Both the position numbers and the translations under genes were made by a program. This document shows, in pieces, positions 2,109 to 32,228 of a DNA stretch of 32,493 nucleotides. The notes under the pieces were generated by a model that did no database searches, was not told the origin of the DNA, and saw nothing but the letters and a program-made list of their open reading frames with translations. This DNA comes from a virus: IMG/VR virus record IMGVR_UViG_3300043395_001432, positions 1 through 32,493 of that record, one strand, 5' to 3'. Position 1 is the first letter of the stretch; each line of letters begins with the position of its first letter.

Positions 2109-5100
2109 TTAGCCCTCTACTGCGTCTGGAGACTCTTCAAACTGCACTGCGCCCAACGGAGACTGAATAACCTCTACTTCAACGACTTGGAATGGCTTGG
2201 CTTCCTGCGTCTTCGTCCATACAGCTACAATAACTGCCCCCGTCAAATCGTCTGCAAGGTCGGCGGACAGCTTGCCCTTGCGGTCTGGCCACAACACCGA
2301 GCTATAGCGTGCGGAATCAACGTCCAGTACCAATTCCATGGCCTCCTTGTCCCCGCCGTAGCGGAAGCGGCGGCTGGACACTACGTAGGAAGCCGTGGCT
2401 ACCGTGTACGGGCCGACAAAAGGAGTGAGCGTATTAAGATGGTCAATAAATCGAGGAGGAGCAAAGCGGGCCTTCTTGTTCCCGTACCTGTACACCCAAA
2501 GTCCGTTCGCTTCAAGAACAATCTGCGGGTGGTTGAGGATTGGTAGCAGGGGCTGGCTGTAGGCCGGGAGGATGGCCTTGCGCATCTGGTAGCGCACCAG
2601 CGGAGACAGGTTGATGAACTCTGCCTTGACCTTGACCGGCTTCTTGCCTGACACCTGTGCCACTACGCGCTCGTACTGCTCCAGCATGTCATTGGTGTCC
2701 GACATGCCCGGGAACAGGCTGTCCATGGCCCCGGAAACAACGAGCTTGTACACCACACCCCGGTTGAGGGCAGAATGACCCATCTTCTTGGCCATGACCA
2801 CAGTCTCGGCCCCGGTCTTCTTGTCCTTCTTCTTCTTTTCGACCATGGTCGCCAGCTTCTCTCGACGGTTTTGTACCTTTTGCACAAACTCCTCTAGGGA
2901 GGCAAACGGGCGTAGTTCGCACATCTCCTTGTGCGCCCCCTCGCCAATCCCATGGAGCAGGGACAGCGGGGCCTGAATGCGCTCCCCTACAATCTCAAAC
3001 TGGTCCCCGGACTTGGAGATATCCGGCAAGTCAATGAGGTGACCGCAGTGCTTCCAAAACTTCTCGTTCACCTCGTCCTTAGAGGCGTTGCGGAGCACCG
3101 CCGTCCACCACTCCAGCGGGTAATGGTACTTGAGGAACGCACAAGCGTAGCCAATCAGGGAATAGCAGACGGCGTGACTTTTGTTGAAACCGTATCTACC
3201 AAAAACCTGAAGAAAGTCCCATAGCTGGCGAGCGCCTTCTTCTCCCAACTTGGCGATTGCTCCGGGCATGAACAGGTCGCGGTGCTTGAGGACCTTGGCC
3301 ATCTCCTTCTTAGCAATATCTCGCCGGAACGCTTCCGCTTGGTCAGCGGTAGTGCCGCCAATCTCCCGGAACGCATACTCCAGTTGCTCCTGATAAACAA
3401 TAATCCCGTAAGTCTCAGGGAAAAGCTGGTCAAGGAGAGGCATGCGCCCATATCCTTGCTCGCCCTTGGCCCGCTTGGAATACTCCACGAGCATGTTGTG
3501 GACCGGTTGCTCTAGGTCGTCCATTACCATTGCGTCCAAAGGCCCCGGACGGTCTAGGGCGGTGAAGGCAGCCAATGACTCAATAGAGTCCAGCGCCTTG
3601 TGCCCAGAGCCGTCCGATTTCAAGAAGTTGAACTCCTTCAACCACTTCTTTGCTCCGTCCGTGTTAAACTGAAACACGGTGTCGGTCTCGCTCCGACAAA
3701 TCGTGTCATATACCGACTGGTCGTCCGGCAAGTCCCATACATCGTACAGCTTCCCGCCAAAAGGAACCACGCGGTAGTAAGGTACAGCGCGGCCATTGAG
3801 AGTGTACGTGCCTTCAATCTTTTCGGAGGCCCGAGAACGAATGAGCTTCAGGGCCTCGGAAATGTCGAGCAACGTGTTCAGCCCGAGGAAGTCCATCTTC
3901 ACGCCCCCGGACTTCTCCACGGGGCCAGCCGTGTACTGGGTGACGCGAACGTCACTGACTAGCTGGAGGGGAATGAAGTTGGACACGGGCTCGTCCGTGA
4001 CCACGTAGGCAGAGGCGTGGCGACCCTTGTTGCGAACTACGCCCAAGCACTTGACCACAATATCCCACTGCTTGGGGTACTTCGCAATGTACTCCTTCAA
4101 AAACTCGTCGGTTTCGATAGCGCCCTTGACCCAGCCGTCCGCGCCATCGTAGCCAAAGACGTAGTCCCGGTCGGAAATGCCCTGCGGGGGCATGGCCATC
4201 TTCTTCGACAGCTTCTCAATCTCGTCCGGCACCTTGCCGTAGGTAGCGCGGGCCACGTCCTTGATGGAAGACTTGACCTTCATCGAGGTGTCAACCGAAA
4301 TCTGAGCGTAGCACTCGCCAAACCGCTGCTTGAGCCAGCCCTTGTCCGGGTCCACAAGAATGTCCCGGTTCGGCAAGTCCATATCAATATCGGGGAGCTT
4401 GCCGGAAAGGATACGAGTCTTCGTCAAGAACCGGTCCATGGACAGGTTGTAACGAAGCGGGTCCGCGTGGGTAATCCCCAGCAGGTAGGTGAGCAGCATG
4501 CCCGCTGCCGAGCCACGGCCCGGACCCGTCAACTGCTCCTGTGCCGCAAACTGGGCAAGGGCCTCCTCTGCGAGGAAGAAATAGGGGAGCAGGTCAATCT
4601 TCCCGTTGCCCTGAATCATCGAGATTTCAGCCTTCAGCCGCTCCACATACTTCTGGTTCGTCCAGTCCATCCGCCCGTGCTTGTCAATCAGGGCCTTGAG
4701 GTGGCCGAGCGTGTTGGTCGGATAGAACGACTTCGGCAAGGACACTCGGTCATTAAACTTGAAGCCCTTGAACTGCTCCGCCCATGCGTGGCTGTTGTCA
4801 ATCCAGCCCTCAAACGTGGCGCGGTCAGTCTTCATGTACTGGGCAAAGTAGGCGAACGCCTCCTCGCTCGACTGCCGGTGGTAGTTGCCGTAGAACTTAA
4901 AATTGTCGCCCATGGAGGCAAGGCGAATCTCCTGCACAATCCGCTCGTCCGGGTGAGCGTAGTGGGAGTCGTCCGAAATGAGAATGCGGTGGCCGTACTT
5001 GCCCGCAAAATACTGGACAACGCGGTTGCAACCTAGCTGGACGTCTCCATCCGGAGCCCATGGGCGGCACTCGTTGGGCATGAAGTCCGAAATCTTCTTG

Positions 5101-12990: not shown

Positions 12991-15033
12991 CTAAATCAAG
13001 GACACCCCGTTGCGCAGTTCCACGTCCACGAACTGGGTAAACATCTCCTTGAACTCGGTGGCGTGGTCTACTACCAAAACGAGGCGGTCCTGCGCGTACT
13101 GTGACAGGATTGTCATACCGCTCTCCTTAGAAACGATATCGAGACCTTCAAAAGCCTCGTCCAGCACCAGCCACCCCGGGACAATACCGGCGCGGCGGCT
13201 GACCACGGAACTCACGGCAAGGTCCACAGCCAGTTCTACAGACGTCAGCATGCCGCCCGAGCAGCCGCTCTTGAGCGGGGCTTCGATGCCGTTAAACGAG
13301 ACCATGGGTATAATTGACTTTTTGATGGTGCCCTTCTGGGTGGCGGTCTCGGACGCAAACCGTACCGTAACATGCTGAGCATTCGGTAGTCCAGACAAAA
13401 TCTCATTGGTCTCAGCCGAAATCTCGTCCAGAACCTCATCAAAGATGCGCCCGAGGAAGCCTTCCCGGCCTACCAGCTTGATGAAGTCCTGCTCGGCCTG
13501 AATCTGGACCTTGAACGCACTGGCCTTCTGCTCTACGTCGGCCAGATAAACCTCGGCCTCTCCCAGCCGCTGCTGGACCTGCTGGAGGCGTTGCGCTTCC
13601 CGGGCGTTGCTGTCCGTTGCGGCCTTGAGGCTAGTTTGGGCCTGAAACAGGTCGTTCCGGGCGGCCAATTCCTCTTCCTGCTGTGTCTGCACTGCTAGCT
13701 GAGCCTCCTTGACAAAAGACTCAAATCGCTGGGTTACCGCAAGCACCTGCTGCTGGCGCTTGAACTCGGCTGCCTGCCTCTGTCCAGCCACCGCCACCTG
13801 CGCCGTAGCAAGGTCAGTAGTCAGCTTGGACTTGACGGTGCCCAGCTTCTCAATCATCGGGTCTGGCTCAAACGTGCTGAGTGCGTCTGCTTCCTTTTCT
13901 AGCGGAAGAAGCAGGTCCAGAGCAAGCTCGTGGTCCTGCATCGTTTTGGCATCTTCAGAGTTCTGCTTTGCAAGAGCGGCAATCCGGTCTTGCGCCTCGT
14001 CCCACTGACGTTCACAAGTAGGGCAGATTGACTGTTGAAGCTTGGTAATCTCTTTGGTCCGAGACTGAATCTGGCTGTGAATCTGAAGCGACTCAAGCTG
14101 GCGCTTACGGAGGTTTGTGACCCGTTGCCCAATTTCGCGCAGTTGCGCAAGTCGTGCAACGTCCCTCTCCTTATCGGCCGCCTTCAGCTTGTCAATCCTC
14201 TCGTTGACATTTGCGAGCAGGTCCGATACCCGTCTCACCTCGGACATGTCTGGCTCAAACGCCACCACGGGGATGGCTGCTAGCTCCCGGTCCCGGTCAA
14301 AGATAACGGTCTGTAGATACTCCTTGACATTTTCCAGCCTCTTCTTGGCGTCTACATGCTCGGCTTCAGCTTCCTTAGCGGCAGTCTTCAAGGGCTCGAC
14401 GTCTACGTGCGTCAAGCTCTGGAGGTCGGCTCGATACCGGTCCACAGTCAGCTTGGCGGGCTCAATCTGGCTCAAGGTGGCGTGGCCGTCCTTCTCCAGC
14501 TTCTTGATGTTCTCGCCTGCCTGCTCGACTGCCTGCTCAAAACGCTCCAGCCCCAATACGGCGGTCAAAAACGACTTCTTCTCGGAATCGGTCTTGGACA
14601 GGAACAGCCCGCGCTCCTGCTGGGCACGGTAGGTCAGCGCCGAGAGTAGGTCCGCAGAAAGCCCCAGCGCCTCCCGGAGCTTGTTCTCTACCAGCGAAGC
14701 CGAGCCAGCCACCTTCTTGCCATTGACGGTGACCGACAGCTTCTCGCCCCGGGTAATGACGATTTCGTCATCTTTGGCCGTCAACTCCAGCTTGACAGAC
14801 ATGGGCTCTTCGGTAAGCCAAGACTGGAGGGCGGTGGCAGGGAAGGGGCTGTAGCCAAGCGCGTAGGCAATCGCTAGGTTGATGGATGACTTGCCCGAGC
14901 CGCTGCTTCCGCCCGTGTCGTGATTCTTCCCACGAATGAGAACAAGCCCCTTTTCCGGGAACTCGACCGTGCAAGTGTCCTTGAACGAGCGGAACGCCTT
15001 AAGAGTGAGCTTGCGCAGGTGGATAGCGGCCAT
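12991..15033 (-). CDS. Rad50/SbcC/T4 gp46-like recombination ATPase
   Basis: The SMC-type ATPase of a DNA end-processing nuclease complex, 680 residues. The Walker A is GGSSGSGKSS (about 41-50). Long coiled-coil arms surround a zinc-hook CPTC (C337, C340). The C-terminal lobe has the ABC signature SGGM (about 594) and Walker B WLVLDEAFEGLD (about 618-628). ATG 15033 is used because AGGTGA lies just upstream; an in-frame GTG at 15039 lacks a site. Its likely partner, the Mre11-like nuclease at 22107-23087, is encoded 7 kb away on the other strand, whereas sbcC and sbcD are usually neighbours. Confidence 0.93.
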   Translation of the reverse strand: MAAIHLRKLTLKAFRSFKDTCTVEFPEKGLVLIRGKNHDTGGSSGSGKSSINLAIAYALGYSPFPATALQSWLTEEPMSVKLELTAKDDEIVITRGEKLSVTVNGKKVAGSASLVENKLREALGLSADLLSALTYRAQQERGLFLSKTDSEKKSFLTAVLGLERFEQAVEQAGENIKKLEKDGHATLSQIEPAKLTVDRYRADLQSLTHVDVEPLKTAAKEAEAEHVDAKKRLENVKEYLQTVIFDRDRELAAIPVVAFEPDMSEVRRVSDLLANVNERIDKLKAADKERDVARLAQLREIGQRVTNLRKRQLESLQIHSQIQSRTKEITKLQQSICPTCERQWDEAQDRIAALAKQNSEDAKTMQDHELALDLLLPLEKEADALSTFEPDPMIEKLGTVKSKLTTDLATAQVAVAGQRQAAEFKRQQQVLAVTQRFESFVKEAQLAVQTQQEEELAARNDLFQAQTSLKAATDSNAREAQRLQQVQQRLGEAEVYLADVEQKASAFKVQIQAEQDFIKLVGREGFLGRIFDEVLDEISAETNEILSGLPNAQHVTVRFASETATQKGTIKKSIIPMVSFNGIEAPLKSGCSGGMLTSVELAVDLAVSSVVSRRAGIVPGWLVLDEAFEGLDIVSKESGMTILSQYAQDRLVLVVDHATEFKEMFTQFVDVELRNGVSLI

Positions 15034-15040
15034 GCTCACC

Positions 15041-16052: not shown

Positions 16053-17846
16053 TTAGTCCAAGTTGGTAGGGTCAATCATTCCGCCGTCTCGGAGATACTG
16101 ATTCGTCTCCCGAGCTTCAGTACGCTCTAGCTCTGCGTCACGCTTAAACACTACCGCGCCACCCAGAGTGCCTAGCAGGCCCGCAATGGAAATAGAGTTG
16201 CGGATGGCTTCTAGGACAGCAGGCGTGGAGTCTAGTAGACCGCCACTACGAGCATCCACGTACTGGAAGTTGAGAGCGTCATAAGCAGAGGGCTCATGTC
16301 CAGCAGTAATCCGATTGCCCACTGTGTGAATCGTATCATTGATTTCATCCTGAGACATGCCCGCATTCTGGAGCAGACGGGTTACCGGGGCAAGCAGGGC
16401 GGGACGGAGAACCGCGTCCACGACCTCGTCGTTCAGCGCCTTAAGCTCGCTGTGAAGCTTGATGAGGGTCCAGCCGCCACCGGGAAGGGTGCCGTGCTTG
16501 ATGGCTCCACGAACCGCTGCAACAGCGTCCTCGGCGCGGTCCCGCTTCTCCCTGAGTTCTCCACTGGAGGGACCGACAACCTTCAGCTTGGCAATGCCGC
16601 CGGTCAGCTTACCAATACGCTCGTTGAGGATAGCGGTCTCGTAAATCGAGGTCTCCTGATTGAGCAGGCTCTTTAGCTGGTCCACGCGGTCCAGTACCGT
16701 CAACTCGTTGAGCGGCGTGCCGTCCGGCATGTGCCCGCACATCACGGAAGAGCGGAAACGGCCGCACTCAAAGTGCTTTGCCTGTAGCCCAATGTCGTGC
16801 AGGGTGGCTACGTCGAACGGCTTGTTGAGCGGGTCGAGGATGGTAGCGCCTGTGTAGGCGGCTACGTCCTGTAGGAACGCAAGCTCGCTGCCCTGTACAG
16901 CGTTCTGGGGAGCAAGCAGCGGAAATACGTTGATGCTACCAATCTCAGCGAAATTGGTGGCGAGGTTTGCCAGCACGGTGTCGGAGAACCCAGTCGCCAC
17001 CAGCACGATGTTGTGGCGGAAGCCGTCAGTCTGCCAAGCACTACCAATCTCGGAGAAGAACTTGATGAGCGTCTGGATATCCGTCACTCGCCCATGGTAA
17101 CAGACAAAGGCGGGGTTCTCCATCTTGCACATTTGCGTGCCGGGGTCGTTGATGAACTTCCCATAGAACTTGCCGCAGGAGTCCTCGTACCCCATGCCAA
17201 TCGGGAAGCCCTCGATGCGCTCCACCTCGTAGGACGAAGGGCCGCTAATCTCCGAAATGGTCACGTTGCCGTCGTCGCCCACAAGCTCAAAGCACTGGAT
17301 GACGGCATTGGCAAGGGCCTCGTCTCCGTTGGCAGACACACGGGCAACCGAGCGCAGAGCCTCCTTGCCCTCCGGGGTATTAAAGTCCGCCTTAGTTGAC
17401 AGGCCGTTTATGGCCGGGGCAATGTTTGTGGTGAACACGCTCTCCAGCTTGCGGACAATCTTCTGCGGGCTGTACCGGGGATTCTTGGCTACGAACGAGT
17501 TGGAGTACCGGACAATCGCTTCGGCCAGTACAGTGGCAGTCGTAGTGCCGTCCCCTGCCTCGGTTGCTGTACGTACAGACGCATCCCGAGCGGTCTCCAT
17601 GATGACGTGCGCCACGGGGTCATCGAAACCCAAGTTGCGGAATACGGTCACGCCGTCCTTGGTGACCATGGCAGGCATACCAAACTCCTGCCGCTCAATC
17701 AAAACGGGCTGTCCACCCGGGCCGAGTGTTGAGCCAACGATATCCGCAATGGTCTTCATGGTGCTTAGCACCTTGTTTGACAGCGAGCCTCCCTTGACCT
17801 CGACAGCCTTGGAGACCGACTTTACCTTTGCGTAACTTGTTGACAT
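16053..17846 (-). CDS. groEL: GroEL-like chaperonin (phage-encoded)
   Basis: A group I chaperonin homologue of 597 residues (E. coli GroEL is 548). The nucleotide-binding motifs are kept: STLGPGG near the N-terminus, TKDGVTV, the hallmark GDGTTTATVLAEA with its catalytic aspartate, and the C-terminal RAEDAVAAVRGAIKHG with the second key Asp, then LPGGG. The apical region is divergent, and the C-terminus lacks the GGM repeats. It is the second gene of the leftward operon, three bases from the winged-helix gene, with GGAGTAG before its ATG. The likely role is folding a phage virion or replication protein that host GroEL cannot handle. A candidate GroES-like partner lies at 21757-22107. Confidence 0.95.
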   Translation of the reverse strand: MSTSYAKVKSVSKAVEVKGGSLSNKVLSTMKTIADIVGSTLGPGGQPVLIERQEFGMPAMVTKDGVTVFRNLGFDDPVAHVIMETARDASVRTATEAGDGTTTATVLAEAIVRYSNSFVAKNPRYSPQKIVRKLESVFTTNIAPAINGLSTKADFNTPEGKEALRSVARVSANGDEALANAVIQCFELVGDDGNVTISEISGPSSYEVERIEGFPIGMGYEDSCGKFYGKFINDPGTQMCKMENPAFVCYHGRVTDIQTLIKFFSEIGSAWQTDGFRHNIVLVATGFSDTVLANLATNFAEIGSINVFPLLAPQNAVQGSELAFLQDVAAYTGATILDPLNKPFDVATLHDIGLQAKHFECGRFRSSVMCGHMPDGTPLNELTVLDRVDQLKSLLNQETSIYETAILNERIGKLTGGIAKLKVVGPSSGELREKRDRAEDAVAAVRGAIKHGTLPGGGWTLIKLHSELKALNDEVVDAVLRPALLAPVTRLLQNAGMSQDEINDTIHTVGNRITAGHEPSAYDALNFQYVDARSGGLLDSTPAVLEAIRNSISIAGLLGTLGGAVVFKRDAELERTEARETNQYLRDGGMIDPTNLD

Positions 17847-17848
17847 TT

Positions 17849-18133
17849 CTACTCCTTGGGCTCAGAACCGAATCGAATGTAACGCTTGTTGAACCAGCTT
17901 TTGGGGGTATTTTGGTATCTACGGGTCTTCCAGTAGACAAGACCTTGCCCCTTCAACCAGTGCAAATAACGTGAAATCTGTTTGCCGCAGCAGCCAAGCG
18001 CCTCGCCTAGCTCGTCGTCGGTCAAATCCACGTACCCGTACTCCTGCTTTGCGAACAGGTACTCGTAAAGTTGCTGTGCCTTTTGAGCAAATTGCCCTAC
18101 AGGGCGTCCCGGACGCTTCTTTTCCGCAGTCAT
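17849..18133 (-). CDS. Winged helix-turn-helix DNA-binding protein
   Basis: A 94-residue protein starting MTAEKKRPGRPVGQ (a GRP-type basic arm), then a winged HTH: LTDDELGEALGCCGKQISRYLHWLKGQGLV, where the second helix and the R-Y-L-x-W-L-K recognition helix are followed by a basic wing (YWKTRRYQNTPKSWFNKRYIRF). ATG 18133 is preferred; an in-frame ATG at 18181 would add 16 low-complexity residues. It is the first gene leftward of the repeat-filled divergent region, so it is the prime candidate to bind those repeats as a repressor, activator or replication initiator (inference). Confidence 0.8.
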   Translation of the reverse strand: MTAEKKRPGRPVGQFAQKAQQLYEYLFAKQEYGYVDLTDDELGEALGCCGKQISRYLHWLKGQGLVYWKTRRYQNTPKSWFNKRYIRFGSEPKE

Positions 18134-18272
18134 GGGGTCAACGTAGCTGGAACCGGTTGTGGGTGTCAAGTGCCCTCCCATTTTTGTCCCGACTCATCGA
18201 CAATAACGTCCGGACTTAGATGTAAGTAATGATATAGATACTAACTACAATCTAACTACCAATTCTTAAATT

Positions 18273-18580
18273 CTATATATGTAGCTAAGGAGGGACTTTT
18301 AGCTTCCGCCCTAAGAAGGGACTTTTGAAGGCTACCCTTAAGGAGGGACGTTTTCATTTGCTTGAACGGACAAAAACCCAGATAACGTCCCTTCTTCATT
18401 TCTGATTTAGCCCTATATAGGTCTAAGGAGGGACAAAAACTGGCGCATGAAGGGACTTTAGCACGGCTTCCTCTAAGGAGGAACCAAAATACGCAAAGAG
18501 GTGCTTTGGTATAGTTTTTGAGCATTAAAGTCCGACCTTCAGTCCGGATTCAGCCATATCTAGCTTAAGGAGGGACTTTT
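18273..18580 (+). repeat. Iteron-like array, consensus TAAGGAGGGACTTTT
   Basis: Copies on the plus strand have their GGAC core at about 18293, 18319, 18346, 18368 (weak), 18431, 18453, 18481 (GAAC variant) and 18573; inverted copies lie at about 18387 and 18530. Neighbouring direct copies are 22-28 bases apart, about two to two and a half helical turns. Three copies (18273-18296, 18412-18434, 18554-18576) carry an extended AT-rich head ending in TAG before TAAGGAGGGAC and are spaced 138 and 142 bases apart. The half-sites are too short and too variable in spacing to be CRISPR. Confidence 0.85.
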
Positions 18581-18588
18581 TTCAAAGC

Positions 18589-18649: not shown

Positions 18650-19222
18650 ATGCTTGTGTCTTTCGTTGGCTCTCCGTGCAGTGGCAAGACGACTACAGCG
18701 GCATCCGTGTTTGCCGAACTCAAGGCAAGCGGGTTGCCAGCCGAGTTCGTGGGTGAGCATGCGCGTTTGTATATTGCCCAAGCCAAGTGCAAGGCCATGG
18801 ACAACAACGTCCCGTTTGAGCTAACGGACGAAGACCAGCGTAAGATTTTCATCAATCAGTACGAGATTGAGAAAACGATGACCCGGGTGTGTGGACCCGA
18901 AGTTGTTGTCATTTCCGATAGCTGCCCGCTTAACAGCCTGCTCTACATGAACGATTTGAACCTGTTCGTTCAGCCGGACGCTTTCATTTCTGAAGTCGCT
19001 AACTCGCTAGAGCTTATCTTTGTTTGCGACCCTGTCAAGCCTGCAACTTCGATTGACCCGAATCGCATTCACGACGAAGAGCAGTCGAAGGCTATCCACG
19101 CCAAGATTGAGCCCATGCTAGCAAAGTGGGCTCCGCATATCAAGACCGTTCCGCTGTTCGGTCCCAATAGCGCACGGGTAGGCACTGTCCTACGGCATTT
19201 GTACTCACGGACGGTTTGGTAA
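18650..19222 (+). CDS. NadR-like P-loop kinase (AAA_28-type ATPase)
   Basis: A 190-residue P-loop protein with Walker A GSPCSGKTT (about 7-15), an EHARLYIAQ motif like the E-x-A-R-x-Y-I of NadR-type ribosylnicotinamide kinases, LTDEDQRKIFINQYEIEK, and a hhhSDS strand (VVISDSCPLNSLLY) equivalent to Walker B. The order matches the AAA_28/NadR kinase family. The likely reaction is phosphorylation of a small nucleoside such as nicotinamide riboside, but the phage version may act on another nucleotide. First gene of the rightward operon, preceded by the TGCGTTATA motif. Its stop overlaps the helicase start (TAATG). Confidence 0.7.
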   Translation: MLVSFVGSPCSGKTTTAASVFAELKASGLPAEFVGEHARLYIAQAKCKAMDNNVPFELTDEDQRKIFINQYEIEKTMTRVCGPEVVVISDSCPLNSLLYMNDLNLFVQPDAFISEVANSLELIFVCDPVKPATSIDPNRIHDEEQSKAIHAKIEPMLAKWAPHIKTVPLFGPNSARVGTVLRHLYSRTVW

Positions 19223-20697
19223 TGCCCATCGTCATTGAGTCGCCTACGGTAGCTCGGCTGGTTGGCTACGAAGGCAGGGAAGAAGAACTCCGTCGCCTGC
19301 TTCGCTACCACGACAAAAAGGTTGACTTTGAAATCCAGAAGTTCAAGAACAGCCCCTACAACCTCCAGCGTCTAGGGGAAGAGGAGTTCAAGGCTCGGCT
19401 GGATGCTCTCAAGGCAGAGCGAATCAAGTATCTTGTTTTCCGGGATGAGCAGGGGCTGTGGACGTACAGCGGGTTGGCAAACAAGACCGCTCTGCATTTC
19501 CAAGACACGATTGAAAACAAGGTCGAGTACCCCGAGCGTGAGTCTTGTCCTTGGCACCGTGTATTGGACAAGGAGCCTCGTCCCTACCAGCAGCAGGCGG
19601 TAGAGAGGCTGATTGAAGGCAAGCATGCAGGCGTGGAGAAGGGGACTGGTCTAGGCAAGTCTCTGGATATCATGCTGCTGGCCAAGCACCACGGACTTAA
19701 GACCATCATCATGGCTCCGTCCGTATCCATTGCAGGTCAGCTTTACGAGGACTTCCTGCACTACTTTGGTCCCAAGAACGTAGGCAAGTTCTACGGCGGC
19801 AAGAAGGAATCCCAGAAGCGGTTCGTGGTGGCTGTGGCTGCCTCCTTGACTCGGGTAGAGCAGGGCACCAAGGACTGGGACAACTTGTCCAAGGCCAAGG
19901 TCTTTATCGCAGACGAGTCGCACCTGTGCCCCGCTTCGACGCTGTTGGAGGTCTGCTTTGGACTGGTTCGGAATGCTCCTTACCGCTATTTCTTCTCTGC
20001 CACCCAAATCCGAAACGACGGTCTGGACTTGGTTTTGGAAGGCATCACGGGACCTATCGTATTCCGTATGTCCGTCCGGGAAGGCATCGAACAAGGGTAC
20101 CTAGCGAAGCCTTTGTTCAAGCTCATTCGCACCAAGTCGGCTAGCCAGTACCATTCTCGTGATGTAAACAACATGACCCGCAAGCACTTGCTGTACAACC
20201 CGGCGGTCAATAAGGCCGCTGGGGAACTTGCGAACAAGGCTGTGGACCTGCTTGGTCACTCGGTTCTCATTCTGGTAGACGAAATTGAGCAGTTCTCCCA
20301 CCTGCTTCCCTACCTAAAGCACCCCGCCAAGTTTGCCCATGGTGGAGTCACCAAAGAGAACAAGGGCAGCCTGCCTCCAGAGTATCACGACAGCGACCCT
20401 GCTGCCCTTGTGGAGGAATTCAACGCAGGGAAGCTACCCATCCTCGTGGGCACCTCCTGCATCTCGACTGGGACCGATATCCGAGCCGTCAAGACCATGA
20501 TTTACCTCATGGGCGGCAAGTCGGAAATTCAGGTGAAACAAGCGGTCGGGCGTTGTACACGTAAGGTGCCCGGTAAAGACTCCTGCATGGTCATCGACTT
20601 CGACGTTGTCAATATCGAATCGCAGCACCGCCACGCCCAAACCCGTAAGCTCATCTACGATGACATTTATGGTCCCGTAGCCGAGATTGATTGGTAA
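19222..20697 (+). CDS. SF2 DNA helicase, UvsW-like
   Basis: A superfamily 2 helicase of 491 residues. A helical N-terminal region (1-125) precedes RPYQQQAVERL (Q-like motif), Walker A GTGLGKS (about 141-147), the DESH box (ADESHL, about 230), motif III FSATQ (about 259), and the second lobe with motif VI QAVGRCTRK (about 440). This is the layout of T4 UvsW and related branch-migrating helicases, which unwind R-loops and recombination forks. ATG 19222 shares a base with the preceding stop; the frame's earlier TTG is rejected. Its neighbours, a sigma-like factor and the Mre11-like nuclease, fit a recombination-dependent replication set. Confidence 0.92.
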   Translation: MPIVIESPTVARLVGYEGREEELRRLLRYHDKKVDFEIQKFKNSPYNLQRLGEEEFKARLDALKAERIKYLVFRDEQGLWTYSGLANKTALHFQDTIENKVEYPERESCPWHRVLDKEPRPYQQQAVERLIEGKHAGVEKGTGLGKSLDIMLLAKHHGLKTIIMAPSVSIAGQLYEDFLHYFGPKNVGKFYGGKKESQKRFVVAVAASLTRVEQGTKDWDNLSKAKVFIADESHLCPASTLLEVCFGLVRNAPYRYFFSATQIRNDGLDLVLEGITGPIVFRMSVREGIEQGYLAKPLFKLIRTKSASQYHSRDVNNMTRKHLLYNPAVNKAAGELANKAVDLLGHSVLILVDEIEQFSHLLPYLKHPAKFAHGGVTKENKGSLPPEYHDSDPAALVEEFNAGKLPILVGTSCISTGTDIRAVKTMIYLMGGKSEIQVKQAVGRCTRKVPGKDSCMVIDFDVVNIESQHRHAQTRKLIYDDIYGPVAEIDW

Positions 20698-20702
20698 CAT
20701 AT

Positions 20703-21725
20703 ATGCCACTAATCGTAGACGACGAGCACTTCCAGTCATTCGCCTCTGTCCTAGAGCAGGCCATTGAGAAGTATGGCAACCTAGAAGAGGAGGACCTGCT
20801 TGCTCGGCAGAAGCGTCAAGTCGAAAAGCTGGTCAAGCTGGAGAAGGACTTCCGTAAGACCCTGATTGCTCATCCTTGGGGCGGAACTGTCTACAGGGCG
20901 TTTATTTCGATGATTTGTGATGAGCGCCGAAACATCTTGGCTGCTCGACCTTTCTTCCGAGAGCGCCAGCCTGTATTTACCCAGAAAATCTCCAAGGCGC
21001 TTAAGAGCCGTAATGAGAAGGCTCTCCAAAAGTTTCATTTCAACTTTACCTTTGTCACCTTTGTGCTCAGGTCCCGTAAGTGGCCCAAGGGCAGTCAGAT
21101 TGTGAAGCTGGCCAAGGACATTGCTGACATTCGCCAAGAGATTATTGAGATGAACATGCCCTTGGCAATCAGCCGGGCAAGCATCTTCTGGCGCAAGACT
21201 CCCAAGGCCCAGCTTTCCTACATGGACCTTGTGCAGATTGCTTGTGAAGGGCTAATGTCCGCCGTGGACAAGTTCTGCCTGCCTTTCTCCCGGGTGTTCC
21301 GAGCCGTTGCGATTGGCCGCATGCTGGGGAATTTCATTGAGCAGTACAGTGAAACCTTGGTTCATTTCTACCCAGTTGACAAGCGCAAAATCTACCGCGC
21401 CAACAAGCTAATGAAGCATTTCCCGGATGGGGTGGACTTTGACTTGCTGGCTGCCGCTGTCAATAAGGAAGTGGACGACGGCCACCTTACCACCCCGGCT
21501 GAGATTGCGGACCTCCTAGCTGCCGCTTCGTGCGTTTCGACGGACACCTCTGCCCCCAACGACCCGGAAGAGTCTGAGGTGCTGGATACCTACGTGGCAG
21601 ACGTCACTTCGCAGCCTGACTACCAATACGAACAACATGAAGCTCGCCAAGTGCTGGCTTCTGCTCTAGGCAGCCTAGACCCGCTGGAGCGTAAGCTGCT
21701 CAAAATGAAGGGGATTTCGTTTTAG
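20703..21725 (+). CDS. Sigma-70-family-like factor lacking region 4.2
   Basis: A 340-residue protein. Residues about 151-220 match sigma region 2: NMPLAISRAS, then SYMDLVQIACEGLMSAVDKF, FSRVFRAVAIGRMLGNFIEQ, as in NLRLV..., DLIQEGNIGLMKAVDKF and FSTYA of bacterial sigmas. Residues 1-150 are a long helical extension with no known match. The last 26 residues (RQVLASALGSLDPLERKLLK, MKGISF) read like region 4.1, and then the protein stops where the region 4.2 helix-turn-helix should follow. T4 gp55, the late sigma, likewise lacks region 4. It probably directs RNA polymerase to the phage promoters. ATG 20703 lies 6 bases past the helicase stop, with no strong Shine-Dalgarno. Confidence 0.82.
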   Translation: MPLIVDDEHFQSFASVLEQAIEKYGNLEEEDLLARQKRQVEKLVKLEKDFRKTLIAHPWGGTVYRAFISMICDERRNILAARPFFRERQPVFTQKISKALKSRNEKALQKFHFNFTFVTFVLRSRKWPKGSQIVKLAKDIADIRQEIIEMNMPLAISRASIFWRKTPKAQLSYMDLVQIACEGLMSAVDKFCLPFSRVFRAVAIGRMLGNFIEQYSETLVHFYPVDKRKIYRANKLMKHFPDGVDFDLLAAAVNKEVDDGHLTTPAEIADLLAAASCVSTDTSAPNDPEESEVLDTYVADVTSQPDYQYEQHEARQVLASALGSLDPLERKLLKMKGISF

Positions 21726-21756: not shown

Positions 21757-22107
21757 ATGACTACTACCGTTAGCACAACTCGTAATCCCGCCATGACTCT
21801 CAAGGTAGAGCCCCAGTTCTATGTCCCAGCAAACAAGGTGGCTCTGACCCCCTTCCCAACGCTGGCCGTGGAGAAGCAGAACACGAGCGGGTTCGTAACA
21901 GTGAAGAACAAGCTCTCCCTTGTTCCGCTCAAGGTTGTTTTTGGTAACGAAAACTCGACCGGCACCACTATTTACGCTCCCACCCACAGCACGGCTTTTG
22001 TCCGGGGTGACTCTGTAACCCAGTTGTGGGCCAAGGAGATTTACGAGGTAGATGGCATCCAGTTCATCCTTGCTCCCGTCGATGCGGTTCAGTTGGTGAG
22101 CCGCTAA
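21757..22107 (+). CDS. Small beta-rich protein, candidate GroES-like co-chaperonin
   Basis: A 116-residue protein. After about 24 residues, NKVALTPFPT, SGFVTVKNKLSLVPLKVVFG, FVRGDSVTQL and VDGIQFILAPVDAVQLV run in the same order as GroES: an opening strand, a loop with the T-x-S-G-F/I segment, a V-x-x-G strand, V-K-x-G-D-x-V, and a final x-y-x-I-x-x-x-D-I-x-x-I/V strand. The alignment is by eye and identity is low. A phage GroEL homologue is present at 16053-17846, and T4 gp31 is a precedent for a diverged phage GroES. ATG 21757 has GGAGGAAG upstream; an earlier TTG at 21745 is rejected. If the GroES reading fails it is a small unknown protein. Confidence 0.75.
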   Translation: MTTTVSTTRNPAMTLKVEPQFYVPANKVALTPFPTLAVEKQNTSGFVTVKNKLSLVPLKVVFGNENSTGTTIYAPTHSTAFVRGDSVTQLWAKEIYEVDGIQFILAPVDAVQLVSR

Positions 22108-23087
22108 TGCGAGTCCTTTTCGTGGGAGACCCGCACGTCAAGCCAAGCGAGCTACAGGACTGCGAACGGTTGATGGAGATGGTAAAGCGAGTGGCCACCT
22201 TTGAACAGGTGAGCCACATCGTGCTTTTGGGGGACTTGTTTCATACCCATTCCATCATCCATCTGGAGGTGCTGGACTTCTGGACTCACTGGCTTCCTCG
22301 CCTTTCCCAGAACCATGCAGTAGTGGCTTTGGTGGGCAACCACGACAAGTCCGGGGATAACGACGACCCCGCCCATGCCTTGATGAGTCTACGCCAATAC
22401 GCAAGCGTGGTGGACTCTCCTACGGTCATTGAGAACGTCCTGTTCCTGCCTTACTACGCAGACCAGTCCAAGCTGGTTGAGTTTGCCAATGCCTCTTCGC
22501 AGTGGAAGACTTTGGTGTGCCATGCCACGTTTGACGGCTCTACGTATGACAATGGCTTCTACGCCAAGGACGCACTGGACCCTAATCTACTTCATGTAGA
22601 GCACATCATCTCCGGGCACATTCACACCCCGCAAACGTTCGGCAAGGTGTGGTACCCGGGTGCTCCGCGTTGGCAGACTGTGTCCGACGCCAACATCGAC
22701 CGCCATATCTGGGTAGTTGACTTTCAAAACGGACGCCCCACCGACAAGAAGTCCTATGATACGAGTGCTGCATGTCTCAAAATCCTGAATTTGAAAGATT
22801 CTCCGGAAGCTCCTCTCGACCCCAAGCTGGTGGAGGAACTGGCGGTTACGGCGAAGGTATGCGTGGATTTGAAGGGGCCGGAAGCCTACATCCAACAGCG
22901 CAAGGAACTGTACTCGCGGCTGCCGGTAAGGTTGAGGACTTTCAGGGAGACAGCATCGGGACCTACAGTGAAGGAATCGGAGGGGATTCAGATAGCATTT
23001 CTGAATTTCCTGCATTCTGGCGCGATTGGCTACGTAACGTCTCTTGAGCAGCTACAGCAGATGGCCAAGGAGCGGCTAGGGGTATGA
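22107..23087 (+). CDS. Mre11/SbcD/T4 gp47-like nuclease subunit
   Basis: A 326-residue calcineurin-like nuclease with full metal-ligand motifs: GDPH (D8, H10), LGDLFHT (D43), VGNHDK (N78, H79), VCHATFD (H139) and SGHIHTPQ (H171, H173). The C-terminal third is helical (LVEELAVTAKVCVDLKG and following), as in the Rad50-contacting tail of Mre11 proteins. With the Rad50-like ATPase at 12991-15033 it should form the exonuclease and endonuclease that processes DNA ends. ATG 22107 shares a base with the preceding stop; the longer frame to 22026 is a shadow. It is coupled to the next gene by an ATGA overlap. Confidence 0.93.
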   Translation: MRVLFVGDPHVKPSELQDCERLMEMVKRVATFEQVSHIVLLGDLFHTHSIIHLEVLDFWTHWLPRLSQNHAVVALVGNHDKSGDNDDPAHALMSLRQYASVVDSPTVIENVLFLPYYADQSKLVEFANASSQWKTLVCHATFDGSTYDNGFYAKDALDPNLLHVEHIISGHIHTPQTFGKVWYPGAPRWQTVSDANIDRHIWVVDFQNGRPTDKKSYDTSAACLKILNLKDSPEAPLDPKLVEELAVTAKVCVDLKGPEAYIQQRKELYSRLPVRLRTFRETASGPTVKESEGIQIAFLNFLHSGAIGYVTSLEQLQQMAKERLGV

Positions 23088-29606: not shown

Positions 29607-32228
29607 GTGCCTAAACCCAAGAAGCTCGCCAAGGCCCAGAAGAACAAGTCGCGCCCTAGCCTGCTAGGCAAGGGGGCAATCAAGGCCATTCATTCGGCCC
29701 TAGACAGCCTCTTTGATAAAATCAAGGCCCGTTTCCTTGGCCCCAAGTCTTTGGGCGGCAAGCAGATTCGGTTCACCTACGAGCGGCCACTATCAATCCC
29801 GGGCCTGTATGAGTCCGGGCTGATTGCGGACGGAGCCAAGCCCAACCTCGACACGCTGGACAGCCTTGTCCATGTGGCGGGCGGGTACGTGGATTCCCTC
29901 CGGGAGAACTCCAAGGCCAACGTAGTCCATACCATTCAATCGTTCATCCGGGACGCCCACCAGCGGGATATTCAGACCGACTTCCGTACCATTCTGGGCG
30001 GGCAGCTAGCGGACCTCTGGGCCTCCACCAGCGGCAAGCTGGAGAGGATTGTTGATACCGAGGCCACCAAGGTGCGCAATGTTTCAGCCCTTGAGGGCAT
30101 TCTAGAAATCAACGCCTCTAGGGGCATTGAAGATGCAGTGGTGTACTGGATTGTAGTGAAGGACGGGGCTTTGTGCAATGAGTGCCGCCGCCTCCATCTT
30201 ATGGGCGACGGGCACACACCCCGGCTCTGGTTCATGTCGGAAGTCAAGCAGGGCTACCATAAGCGCGGCGAAGATGCCCCGGCTATTGGCGGGCTGCACC
30301 CGCACTGCCTAACCGGCAACATGCGCATCCACACTGACCGTGGTATGCTGACCGCCAAGGAGCTTTTTGAGCAGGGCGGCAACCTCAAGGCGGTTGTGGA
30401 CGAGCGGGTCAAGGTTCGGCGTCAGGGCAACAACCAGTTTGGCGCAGAGCTAGAGGGCCAAGTGTGGTACCACCGCCACGCCTCCGGGGCTCGCTTGCTG
30501 GACGCAACTCACGTTTATGATACTGGCGTTCAGCCGTGTTACCGGATTGAGCTAGACTCTGGTCACGTTATCGAGGTCTCGGAAGGCCACGAAATGTGGG
30601 TGGATGACGGCAATGCTGGCGTCAAAATCCGTGCGGACAAGCTCAAGGTCGGAGACAAGGTTCCGTTGCTGTCCGGAGAGGGCGCTTTTGGCAGTGACTC
30701 TTTCCCAGAGCTTGCCGAGTTGATGGGCAACCTGATGGGAGATGGGACTCTAAACGACACTGCTCAATTCCATTTCTTTGGGGATGACATTGAGTACGGT
30801 CGTCACCTCAAGGCTATGGCCGCCAAGTTTAGCGACAGGCTGGACGGCGAGATGACCGTTTATCCACCGAATAACAAATACTCGGTAGACCACGCTACTT
30901 TCAATAGCCAAGTTCTGCGCCGTATTTTTGTGGAGGAGTTTGGGCTATCCAAGACCCCCCGTCGAGTTCCGGCACGAATTTGGGGCGCAGACAAGGCTAC
31001 CGTAGCTGGTTACGTTCGGGGTCTATTCGCGGCTGACGGGCATTCCGAAGTAACTCCATCGGTGGTATTGGCTCAGAACGATTCGGAGTTCCTGCGCGAA
31101 ATCCAAGCCCTGCTATCTAATTTTGGTATTCGTTCACGCATCTTTAAGCATGACGAAGCCATGCAGAAGACCATCACCTATGCCGATGGCTCTCAATACG
31201 TTACGGAGCGCAAAGAGTGCTGGCGTCTTCACGTCGGTGGCTGGGAACAGGTCAATCGTTTCGCTACCGAAATTGGGCTCGGCGTTCCCGCTAAACAGCG
31301 CAAGCTGCTAGAGCGCCTAGAGGCTACTAAGGAGAATGGACGCCACGGAGCGTGGCGTACTGCGAGGGTGCTATCCATTGCGTCTATTGGCGAACAGCAA
31401 ACCTACTGCCTAACTGAGCATAAGACCAATACCATCACGGTGAACGGTATTGTAACGGGCAACTGCCGGTGCAGCATGGTAACGCTGCTCCCCGGCTACG
31501 GCTTTGACGCTGGTGGCAAGGTGGAGTTCAAGAAGTTCGGCTACAACGCCATCAACGTCCAGCGCGGCACCAACAAGGCTGAAGACGCCTTCCCCGGCCT
31601 GTTGCTTGCCAAGGACGGCGAAGACGAGCACGATGCTGAAGACTTGGAAAAGGCTCTTCCGCCCTACAATCCGGCCACGGACACCTCGGACAAGGAGCGC
31701 CAGACAATCTCGGACTGGCAGAACTACGCCGATACCAAGTCCCGGAACGCCATCCCACGGCTTATTGGCGCAGGACGGGAGCGTGCCCTGCACAAGCTTC
31801 ATGGGAAGACTGAAGCTCGCCGTAATCCCACCACAGGCGAGCGCGAGTTCTTGCTCCACCGGGGCGTGGGGAACACGGACAAGCTCCAGATTGAGAACGG
31901 CGTAGTTTCACACAAGGGCGTGGGCTCGTGGACGTTTGACCCAGAGATTGCCCAGTCTTTTGGTAAGCGCCGCAAAGGAACGGTGTCGGCGTGGATTCCC
32001 GAAAGCGCCATCCACCATGTTCTAGACCAAGTCGGCTACGTCAACGACGGCGCTACGGCCGGGATACACGGCAACAAGCCCAAGCCGGGGATTTCGGTAC
32101 CGCACCCTACCGACCCCAACGCAATCCCACGGGCGATTGGCAAGCCCGGATACCGCGAAGGAGAGATTCTGGTAAAGCTGCCCAAGGGGGCACACGTCCA
32201 CAAGTGGGAGCCTAGCCCTCCCGCTTAA
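29607..32228 (+). CDS. MuF-type head protein fused to ADP-ribosyltransferase domain, with intein
   Basis: An 873-residue precursor. Residues 1-233 plus 620 onward form a MuF/SPP1 gp7-type head morphogenesis domain with a metal-binding set: C190-x2-C193 and HPHCRC (H231, H233, C620, C622). Between H233 and C620 sits an intein (residues 234-619). The mature, spliced protein would be 487 residues. The C-terminal part (about 740-866) resembles an ADP-ribosyltransferase: R752 in LLHRGVG, S774 in GSWTFDPEIAQSF, and E851-x-E853 in REGEIL. MuF proteins may be packaged with DNA, so this could be an injected effector. The start is GTG 29607 with AAGGGA upstream; no ATG fits. The ART call is by motif order only. 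Confidence 0.88.
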   Translation: MPKPKKLAKAQKNKSRPSLLGKGAIKAIHSALDSLFDKIKARFLGPKSLGGKQIRFTYERPLSIPGLYESGLIADGAKPNLDTLDSLVHVAGGYVDSLRENSKANVVHTIQSFIRDAHQRDIQTDFRTILGGQLADLWASTSGKLERIVDTEATKVRNVSALEGILEINASRGIEDAVVYWIVVKDGALCNECRRLHLMGDGHTPRLWFMSEVKQGYHKRGEDAPAIGGLHPHCLTGNMRIHTDRGMLTAKELFEQGGNLKAVVDERVKVRRQGNNQFGAELEGQVWYHRHASGARLLDATHVYDTGVQPCYRIELDSGHVIEVSEGHEMWVDDGNAGVKIRADKLKVGDKVPLLSGEGAFGSDSFPELAELMGNLMGDGTLNDTAQFHFFGDDIEYGRHLKAMAAKFSDRLDGEMTVYPPNNKYSVDHATFNSQVLRRIFVEEFGLSKTPRRVPARIWGADKATVAGYVRGLFAADGHSEVTPSVVLAQNDSEFLREIQALLSNFGIRSRIFKHDEAMQKTITYADGSQYVTERKECWRLHVGGWEQVNRFATEIGLGVPAKQRKLLERLEATKENGRHGAWRTARVLSIASIGEQQTYCLTEHKTNTITVNGIVTGNCRCSMVTLLPGYGFDAGGKVEFKKFGYNAINVQRGTNKAEDAFPGLLLAKDGEDEHDAEDLEKALPPYNPATDTSDKERQTISDWQNYADTKSRNAIPRLIGAGRERALHKLHGKTEARRNPTTGEREFLLHRGVGNTDKLQIENGVVSHKGVGSWTFDPEIAQSFGKRRKGTVSAWIPESAIHHVLDQVGYVNDGATAGIHGNKPKPGISVPHPTDPNAIPRAIGKPGYREGEILVKLPKGAHVHKWEPSPPA
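30306..31463 (+). other. Intein with LAGLIDADG homing endonuclease domain
   Basis: Residues 234-619 of the precursor, 386 residues. It begins with CLTGNMRIHTDRG (block A) and has a TYCLTEHKTNTITVNGIVTGN-type end that leads into Cys +1 of the C-extein. Block B is GHVIEVSEGHEMWV. Two LAGLIDADG-like motifs, LAELMGNLMGDG (369-380) and VAGYVRGLFAADG (466-478), mark the homing nuclease. The penultimate residue is Gly (G618), not His. Removing it restores HPHCRC exactly, confirming the insertion point. Splicing by family precedent is expected but not tested. Confidence 0.92.
31824..32204 (+). other. ADP-ribosyltransferase-like domain within the MuF protein
   Basis: Encodes residues about 740-866. 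Motifs in order: R752 (FLLHRGVG), S774 (SWTF), then REGEILVKLPKG containing E851 and E853. This R-S-ExE order is that of NAD-dependent arginine mono-ADP-ribosyltransferases such as T4 Alt-like and bacterial toxins. Spacing between S774 and the ExE (77 residues) includes a Pro/Gly-rich loop, so the fold should be checked. No signal sequence. Confidence 0.6.

Follow-up and report, generated by a model that had tools for sequence, protein, structure and literature searches.

Gene organization around the divergent region

The window analyzed here is the virus contig IMGVR_UViG_3300043395_001432 (32,493 bp), which has the gene content of a large tailed phage. Two divergent operons are separated by a 518-bp non-coding gap. 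The leftward genes encode a small winged-helix protein, GroEL, SbcC-like and RuvC-like proteins, ribonucleotide reductase, dUTPase, an exonuclease and a PolIII-like polymerase; the rightward genes encode a kinase, a helicase, a sigma-like factor, an SbcD-like protein, terminase and portal. The winged-helix gene (17849-18133, minus strand) specifies 94 residues from the ATG at 18133, with a longer open reading frame of 110 residues starting at 18181. It is followed by the GroEL-like chaperonin as the second gene of the operon (16053-17846, minus strand; phrog_5725, PF00118). A nucleotide-kinase-like gene of the AAA_28 type (18650-19222, plus strand; PF13521) heads the rightward operon. The sigma-like gene (20691-21725) and the terminase gene lie 2 kb and 6 kb from the repeat array described below. 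Note that the SbcC-like (12991-15039, minus strand) and SbcD-like (22026-23087, plus strand) genes are in opposite operons, flanking this locus. Further to the right, an 873-residue open reading frame (29607-32228, plus strand) combines a LAGLIDADG_3 match with a sub-threshold intein-splicing match and is, by sequence, a probable intein within a structural gene.

Of the named phages, Myxococcus phage Mx1 (169,621 bp) is the nearest relative; it is syntenic with the window and largely shares the gene order around the locus. The Mx1 chaperonin is 50% identical to that of the window, a winged-helix homologue is found at the same place, and the homologue of the kinase-like gene is the first gene of the Mx1 record. 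No origin is annotated in this record, and the literature found on large myxophages of this group describes none.

A phage-specific repeat array fills the non-coding gap

Using a position-weight model, we located twelve sites of the motif TAAGRAGGGACKTTWW (eight forward, four inverted) between 18181 and 18581. At a score of ≥11, all twelve were inside the non-coding region and none elsewhere in the 32,493 bp, in a model that was trained on the array sites themselves and hence favours them. From left to right, two weak inverted sites, TGAGTCGGGACAAAAA (18181-18196, adjoining the winged-helix gene) and TAAGTCCGGACGTTAT (18203-18218), are followed by the forward sites TAAGGAGGGACTTTTA (18286-18301), TAAGAAGGGACTTTTG (18312-18327), TAAGGAGGGACGTTTT (18339-18354) and CTTGAACGGACAAAAA (18361-18376, weak), the inverted site GAAGAAGGGACGTTAT (18382-18397), the forward sites TAAGGAGGGACAAAAA (18424-18439), CATGAAGGGACTTTAG (18446-18461) and TAAGGAGGAACCAAAA (18474-18489), the inverted site GAAGGTCGGACTTTAA (18525-18540) and a last forward site, TAAGGAGGGACTTTTT (18566-18581). 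A mismatch search with TAAGGAGGGACTTTT (≤3 mismatches) gave four matches in the window, all within 18286-18580 and corresponding to TAAGGAGGGACTTTTA, TAAGAAGGGACTTTTG, TAAGGAGGGACGTTTT and TAAGGAGGGACTTTTT; 0.71 were expected by chance, and four were reached in none of 100 shuffles. The array region held 76 pairs of repeated 8-mers, compared with a mean of 5.8 and a maximum of 14 in 200 shuffles, a 13-fold excess over the mean. Searching viral_contigs for the pair pattern AAGGAGGGAC returned five matches in other contigs, none of which had a match to the window proteins.

The initial annotation had described at least eight copies, spaced by 22-28 bp, with additional inverted copies at the point where transcription switches strands. 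The array is thus real beyond chance, it contains both orientations and it sits between the divergent operons as proposed, but it comprises twelve sites rather than about eight and reaches further left, to 18181. Its start-to-start spacing is 21-28, 41-51 and 83 bp, not 22-28 bp throughout. Abundance of the motif across the genome had been named as the observation that would speak against a special role, and none was found elsewhere in the contig at matched score. Core-to-core distances are mostly near two, four or eight helical turns; others are near half-integral values, so that helical phasing of the array is only partial. Five copies contain the sequence AAGGAGG. A sigma-70 promoter scan of the array region gave no matches.

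The 169,621 bp of Mx1 (OR576727.2) contain three copies of the core GGGACKTTAA, all inside one 181-bp stretch of the orthologous divergent region; by arithmetic, a random sequence the size of the Mx1 genome would hold about 0.65 matches. The core was absent from all 18 other phage records searched. A variant, GCGGACTTTAAT, is also present in the Mx1 region. The AT-rich stretch there is flanked, just as it is in the window, by an inverted site on the left and forward sites on the right. The two regions thus agree in position, gene order and core; that of Mx1 differs in having only about four sites and is unannotated in the record. Mx1 shares GGGACKTT at the same place and does not have AAGGAGG. 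Therefore, the likeness to a Shine-Dalgarno sequence is not the conserved feature.

An exceptional AT-rich element lies within the array

The segment 18214-18283 (54 of 70 positions AT), rich in CTA/TAG strings, is a proposed DNA unwinding element. It includes the AT-richest 60-mer of the window (start 18224; 47/60 AT), with the two weak inverted sites to its left and all other sites to its right, a feature that the initial annotation had not mentioned. Among the eight complete-size genomes with an Mx1-type helicase, seven (Mx1, G001, G002, G003, G005, G006 and G018) have their AT-richest 60-mer at this locus, alone or, in one case, tied; in G011, the whole-genome comparison placed it elsewhere. 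It was also not at the slot in G012 and G013, both of which carry a DnaB-like helicase there. The AT-rich stretch could serve promoters instead.

The AT-rich stretches contain an excess of CTA/TAG triplets (91 versus 48.7 ± 6.3), recalling DnaA-trios (PMC8287927). We do not count this likeness as proof because DnaA boxes are absent: such regions, 9,052 bp in total, gave a single box-like match, versus 1.9 expected, and the window region gave none. An oriC-type origin was rejected on this basis, and a phage initiator is therefore expected.

Marker signals from base composition were mixed. The initial annotation had suggested GC skew as a check on an origin, and the raw skew minimum is indeed no more than about 2.1 kb from the locus in five of ten genomes (in Mx1, 24 bp from the kinase start). 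The other genomes have their minima 23-40 kb from it, in structural-gene blocks where these were inspected, and fits at four-fold sites do not single out the locus, the best Mx1 fit being elsewhere. We therefore discarded GC skew as proof of an origin.

The adjacent gene encodes a single winged-helix domain

AlphaFold2 predicted one domain of winged-helix topology for the window protein (pLDDT 85.5), from an alignment that did not include the Mx1 row. The protein has weak Pfam matches to winged-helix families. Its Pfam and PDB resemblances extend to generic regulators such as MarR/ArsR/TFE, and the commonest PHROG matches of its homologues are to replication initiation protein, DnaD-like loader and O-like entries. 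The likeness to initiators is generic. Within the 94 residues we recognized no helicase-loading domain. No Rep family matched at the cut-off and the two-domain arrangement of Rep is absent; with respect to λ O and DnaD, there are weak matches to the DNA-binding part and no C-terminal domain.

Several homologues differ in their annotation or architecture. In Mx1, homology extends beyond the annotated winged-helix gene (168903-169187), upstream to an ATG at 169271; the annotation probably leaves out about 84 bp. The slot proteins of L029, L031, L035 and L159 have an extra N-terminal part that resembles GIY-YIG by eye; Pfam gave no support for such a domain and we rejected the assignment. The slot protein of L091 (6375-6986) appears, again by eye, to consist of two tandem winged-helix units, reminiscent of Rep, with a sub-threshold Pfam match. 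In L026, a recombination endonuclease VII-like gene (3282-3584; PF02945, E = 1e-21) is found between the GroEL and winged-helix genes.

Repeat sequence co-varies with the winged-helix protein

A scan with the sigma-factor alignment yielded 63 viral loci. In 21 phages, including the window and Mx1, a small winged-helix-like gene occupies the slot upstream of GroEL, opposite the kinase/helicase genes. Strong repeat arrays were present in 18 of these 21 winged-helix-type regions (L015, L016 and L023 being without one), compared to 12 of 147 other non-coding gaps (Fisher 1e-13); the control gaps came from seven genomes and were judged by the same threefold criterion, with 60 shuffles against 200 for the regions. 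The repeats themselves vary: ATGTTTACTTTA in L017, GGTGGTCATTCACC in L019, TGGCCCGATACC in L020, ARTGCCGTTCA in L024, L026 and L029, GGTATAATTGGTATG in L014 and AAGGGTGGCAGGATTGTC in L034.

Motif similarity correlated with winged-helix similarity (Mantel r = 0.645, p = 0.0002, n = 13), in a comparison for which the L017, L019 and L020 motifs were hand-picked from visible repeats and the winged-helix domains were trimmed by eye. The correlation persisted when sigma similarity was removed (partial Mantel r = 0.55, p = 0.0003) and when two of the three closest phages were left out (r = 0.42, p = 0.0035). Conversely, motif and sigma similarity were uncorrelated once the winged helix was removed (r = 0). 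Of the phages in this comparison, Mx1 has the sigma factor least like that of the window but the most similar winged-helix protein, and no other shares the motif. By these comparisons, repeat sequence tracks the winged-helix protein and not phylogeny. The prediction that this protein binds the array repeats is thus well supported by co-variation, and the adjacent protein, which the initial annotation had named as a possible binder, is the probable one in the window.

Two further features of the family were recorded. Three related phage contigs in genome_contigs (L159, L160 and L161) are binned into Saccharibacteria, Saprospiraceae and Deltaproteobacteria MAGs; host assignment by binning is doubtful. 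In addition, gaps of about 0.6-1.3 kb or more interrupt the tblastn matches to terminase (L019, L033, L040, L041, L044, L060, L061 and L072), to sigma (L072 and L073) and to the G011 polymerase, a pattern that suggests inteins or introns in many relatives.

The array is exchanged together with the helicase

In complete-size genomes with the winged-helix gene, an Mx1-type primase-helicase is encoded at a distance of 21-28 kb. Where the slot is taken by a different DnaB, the genomes have neither the array nor the AT-rich peak nor the Mx1-type helicase. Next to the slot DnaB, L013, L038 and L043 encode a protein with matches to replication-initiation or primosomal families; in L045 such matches are weak. 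L014 is an exception in combining a winged helix and iterons with a slot DnaB. We also looked for iterons within the initiator genes of the slot-DnaB phages; the candidates were not convincing. The strongest argument from context for an origin at this locus is that the entire module is replaced by a different initiation module.

A probable iteron-type origin and its alternatives

Taken together, these findings make it fairly probable that a large Mx1-like phage starts its replication at 18181-18581, from an iteron-type origin to which the neighbouring winged-helix protein binds. As in iteron origins, a specific short repeat is clustered at one place of the replicon and, by sequence composition, an AT-rich element lies beside it. 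According to the model we propose, the winged-helix protein encoded alongside would bind the twelve phage-specific sites that flank the AT-rich element between the divergent operons, as co-variation predicts. Several bound copies might then open this element, and the opened DNA would allow the phage's own Mx1-type primase-helicase to load. This helicase step is borrowed from the relatives, since the window stops short of any replicative helicase gene. Binding to the sites near the winged-helix gene would also repress the protein's own promoter, making it a possible initiator and autoregulator. Protein and repeats would change in step as matched partners, so that every phage has an origin specificity of its own.

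The initial annotation had offered origin iterons, operators for the winged-helix protein or translation-like decoys. Origin iterons are the best supported of the three, given the array, the exceptional AT-rich element and the replacement of the locus by a replication initiator with a DnaB in some relatives. They are not exclusive of operators, because co-variation supports binding independently, and the two functions may coexist by analogy with plasmid Rep proteins. That the sites are operators only, through which the winged-helix protein regulates two divergent early operons and has no replication role, with the AT-rich stretch supporting promoters, is the main alternative, though rather unlikely. 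The predicted binding fits it equally well, as do the generic regulators among the Pfam and PDB resemblances and the site just upstream of the winged-helix start in several phages. Identical short inverted sequences by the start codons at both edges of the region (Mx1, L013, L014 and L015) can moreover be read as paired promoters. However, most sites are between the edges, off the presumed promoters, and a pure regulator predicts neither a genome-top AT stretch nor the joint loss of array, AT-rich element and helicase type.

In TubR layouts, a small winged-helix protein is encoded beside its own iterons, and the window locus resembles these. Together with the terminase gene 6 kb away, this resemblance would fit a centromere-like or packaging site served by a small adaptor protein, as for TubR on tubC iterons or a pac region. 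We regard such a site as improbable: the neighbours are GroEL and kinase/helicase genes rather than an adjoining TubZ, ParM or ParA gene, and the joint loss with the helicase type would be left unexplained. In addition, Mx1-like phages are described as virulent (PMC6070905), and partition is therefore not expected. A promoter array for the phage-encoded sigma-like factor is more improbable still; the factor is encoded only 2 kb away, but the motif is confined to this locus, being absent upstream of other Mx1 operons, and retains no correlation with sigma similarity. Shine-Dalgarno-like decoys acting in translation, which the five AAGGAGG copies might suggest, can practically be dismissed, as the core persists in Mx1 without AAGGAGG and the repeats of other relatives are unrelated. 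The resemblance is coincidental.

Relation to known origins

The locus provides a short, testable segment with a named candidate binder. Matched protein-repeat pairs, constant in position and design but varying in sequence, would form a data set for the rules of winged-helix recognition and for origin specificity in lytic phages. More tentatively, the one-domain winged-helix protein of Mx1-like phages (some 70-120 residues, with neither an AAA+ nor a loader domain) may be the dedicated initiator of an unrecognised origin system, in which protein and iterons turn over together so fast that close relatives differ in origin specificity.

Iterons adjoining an A+T-rich region are the layout of ori-λ and of iteron plasmids (PMC5043065, PMC4980987). 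With the λ origin, the locus shares repeats beside an A+T-rich stretch and near the gene of their DNA-binding protein, here a proposed one. The λ iterons are near-palindromic 19-bp sequences bound by O dimers (PMC5043065); in contrast, the window has up to twelve short, mostly non-palindromic sites between divergent operons, and its protein is without the O-type C-terminal part. Iteron plasmids (RK2, F, R6K and P1) likewise combine mostly direct repeats, an AT-rich element and a winged-helix protein, with repeat numbers and lengths in a range similar to that of the window array (PMC4980987). Their origins carry DnaA boxes, which the window locus does not, and their Rep proteins have two winged-helix domains, as L091 seems to by eye, whereas the window protein has one.
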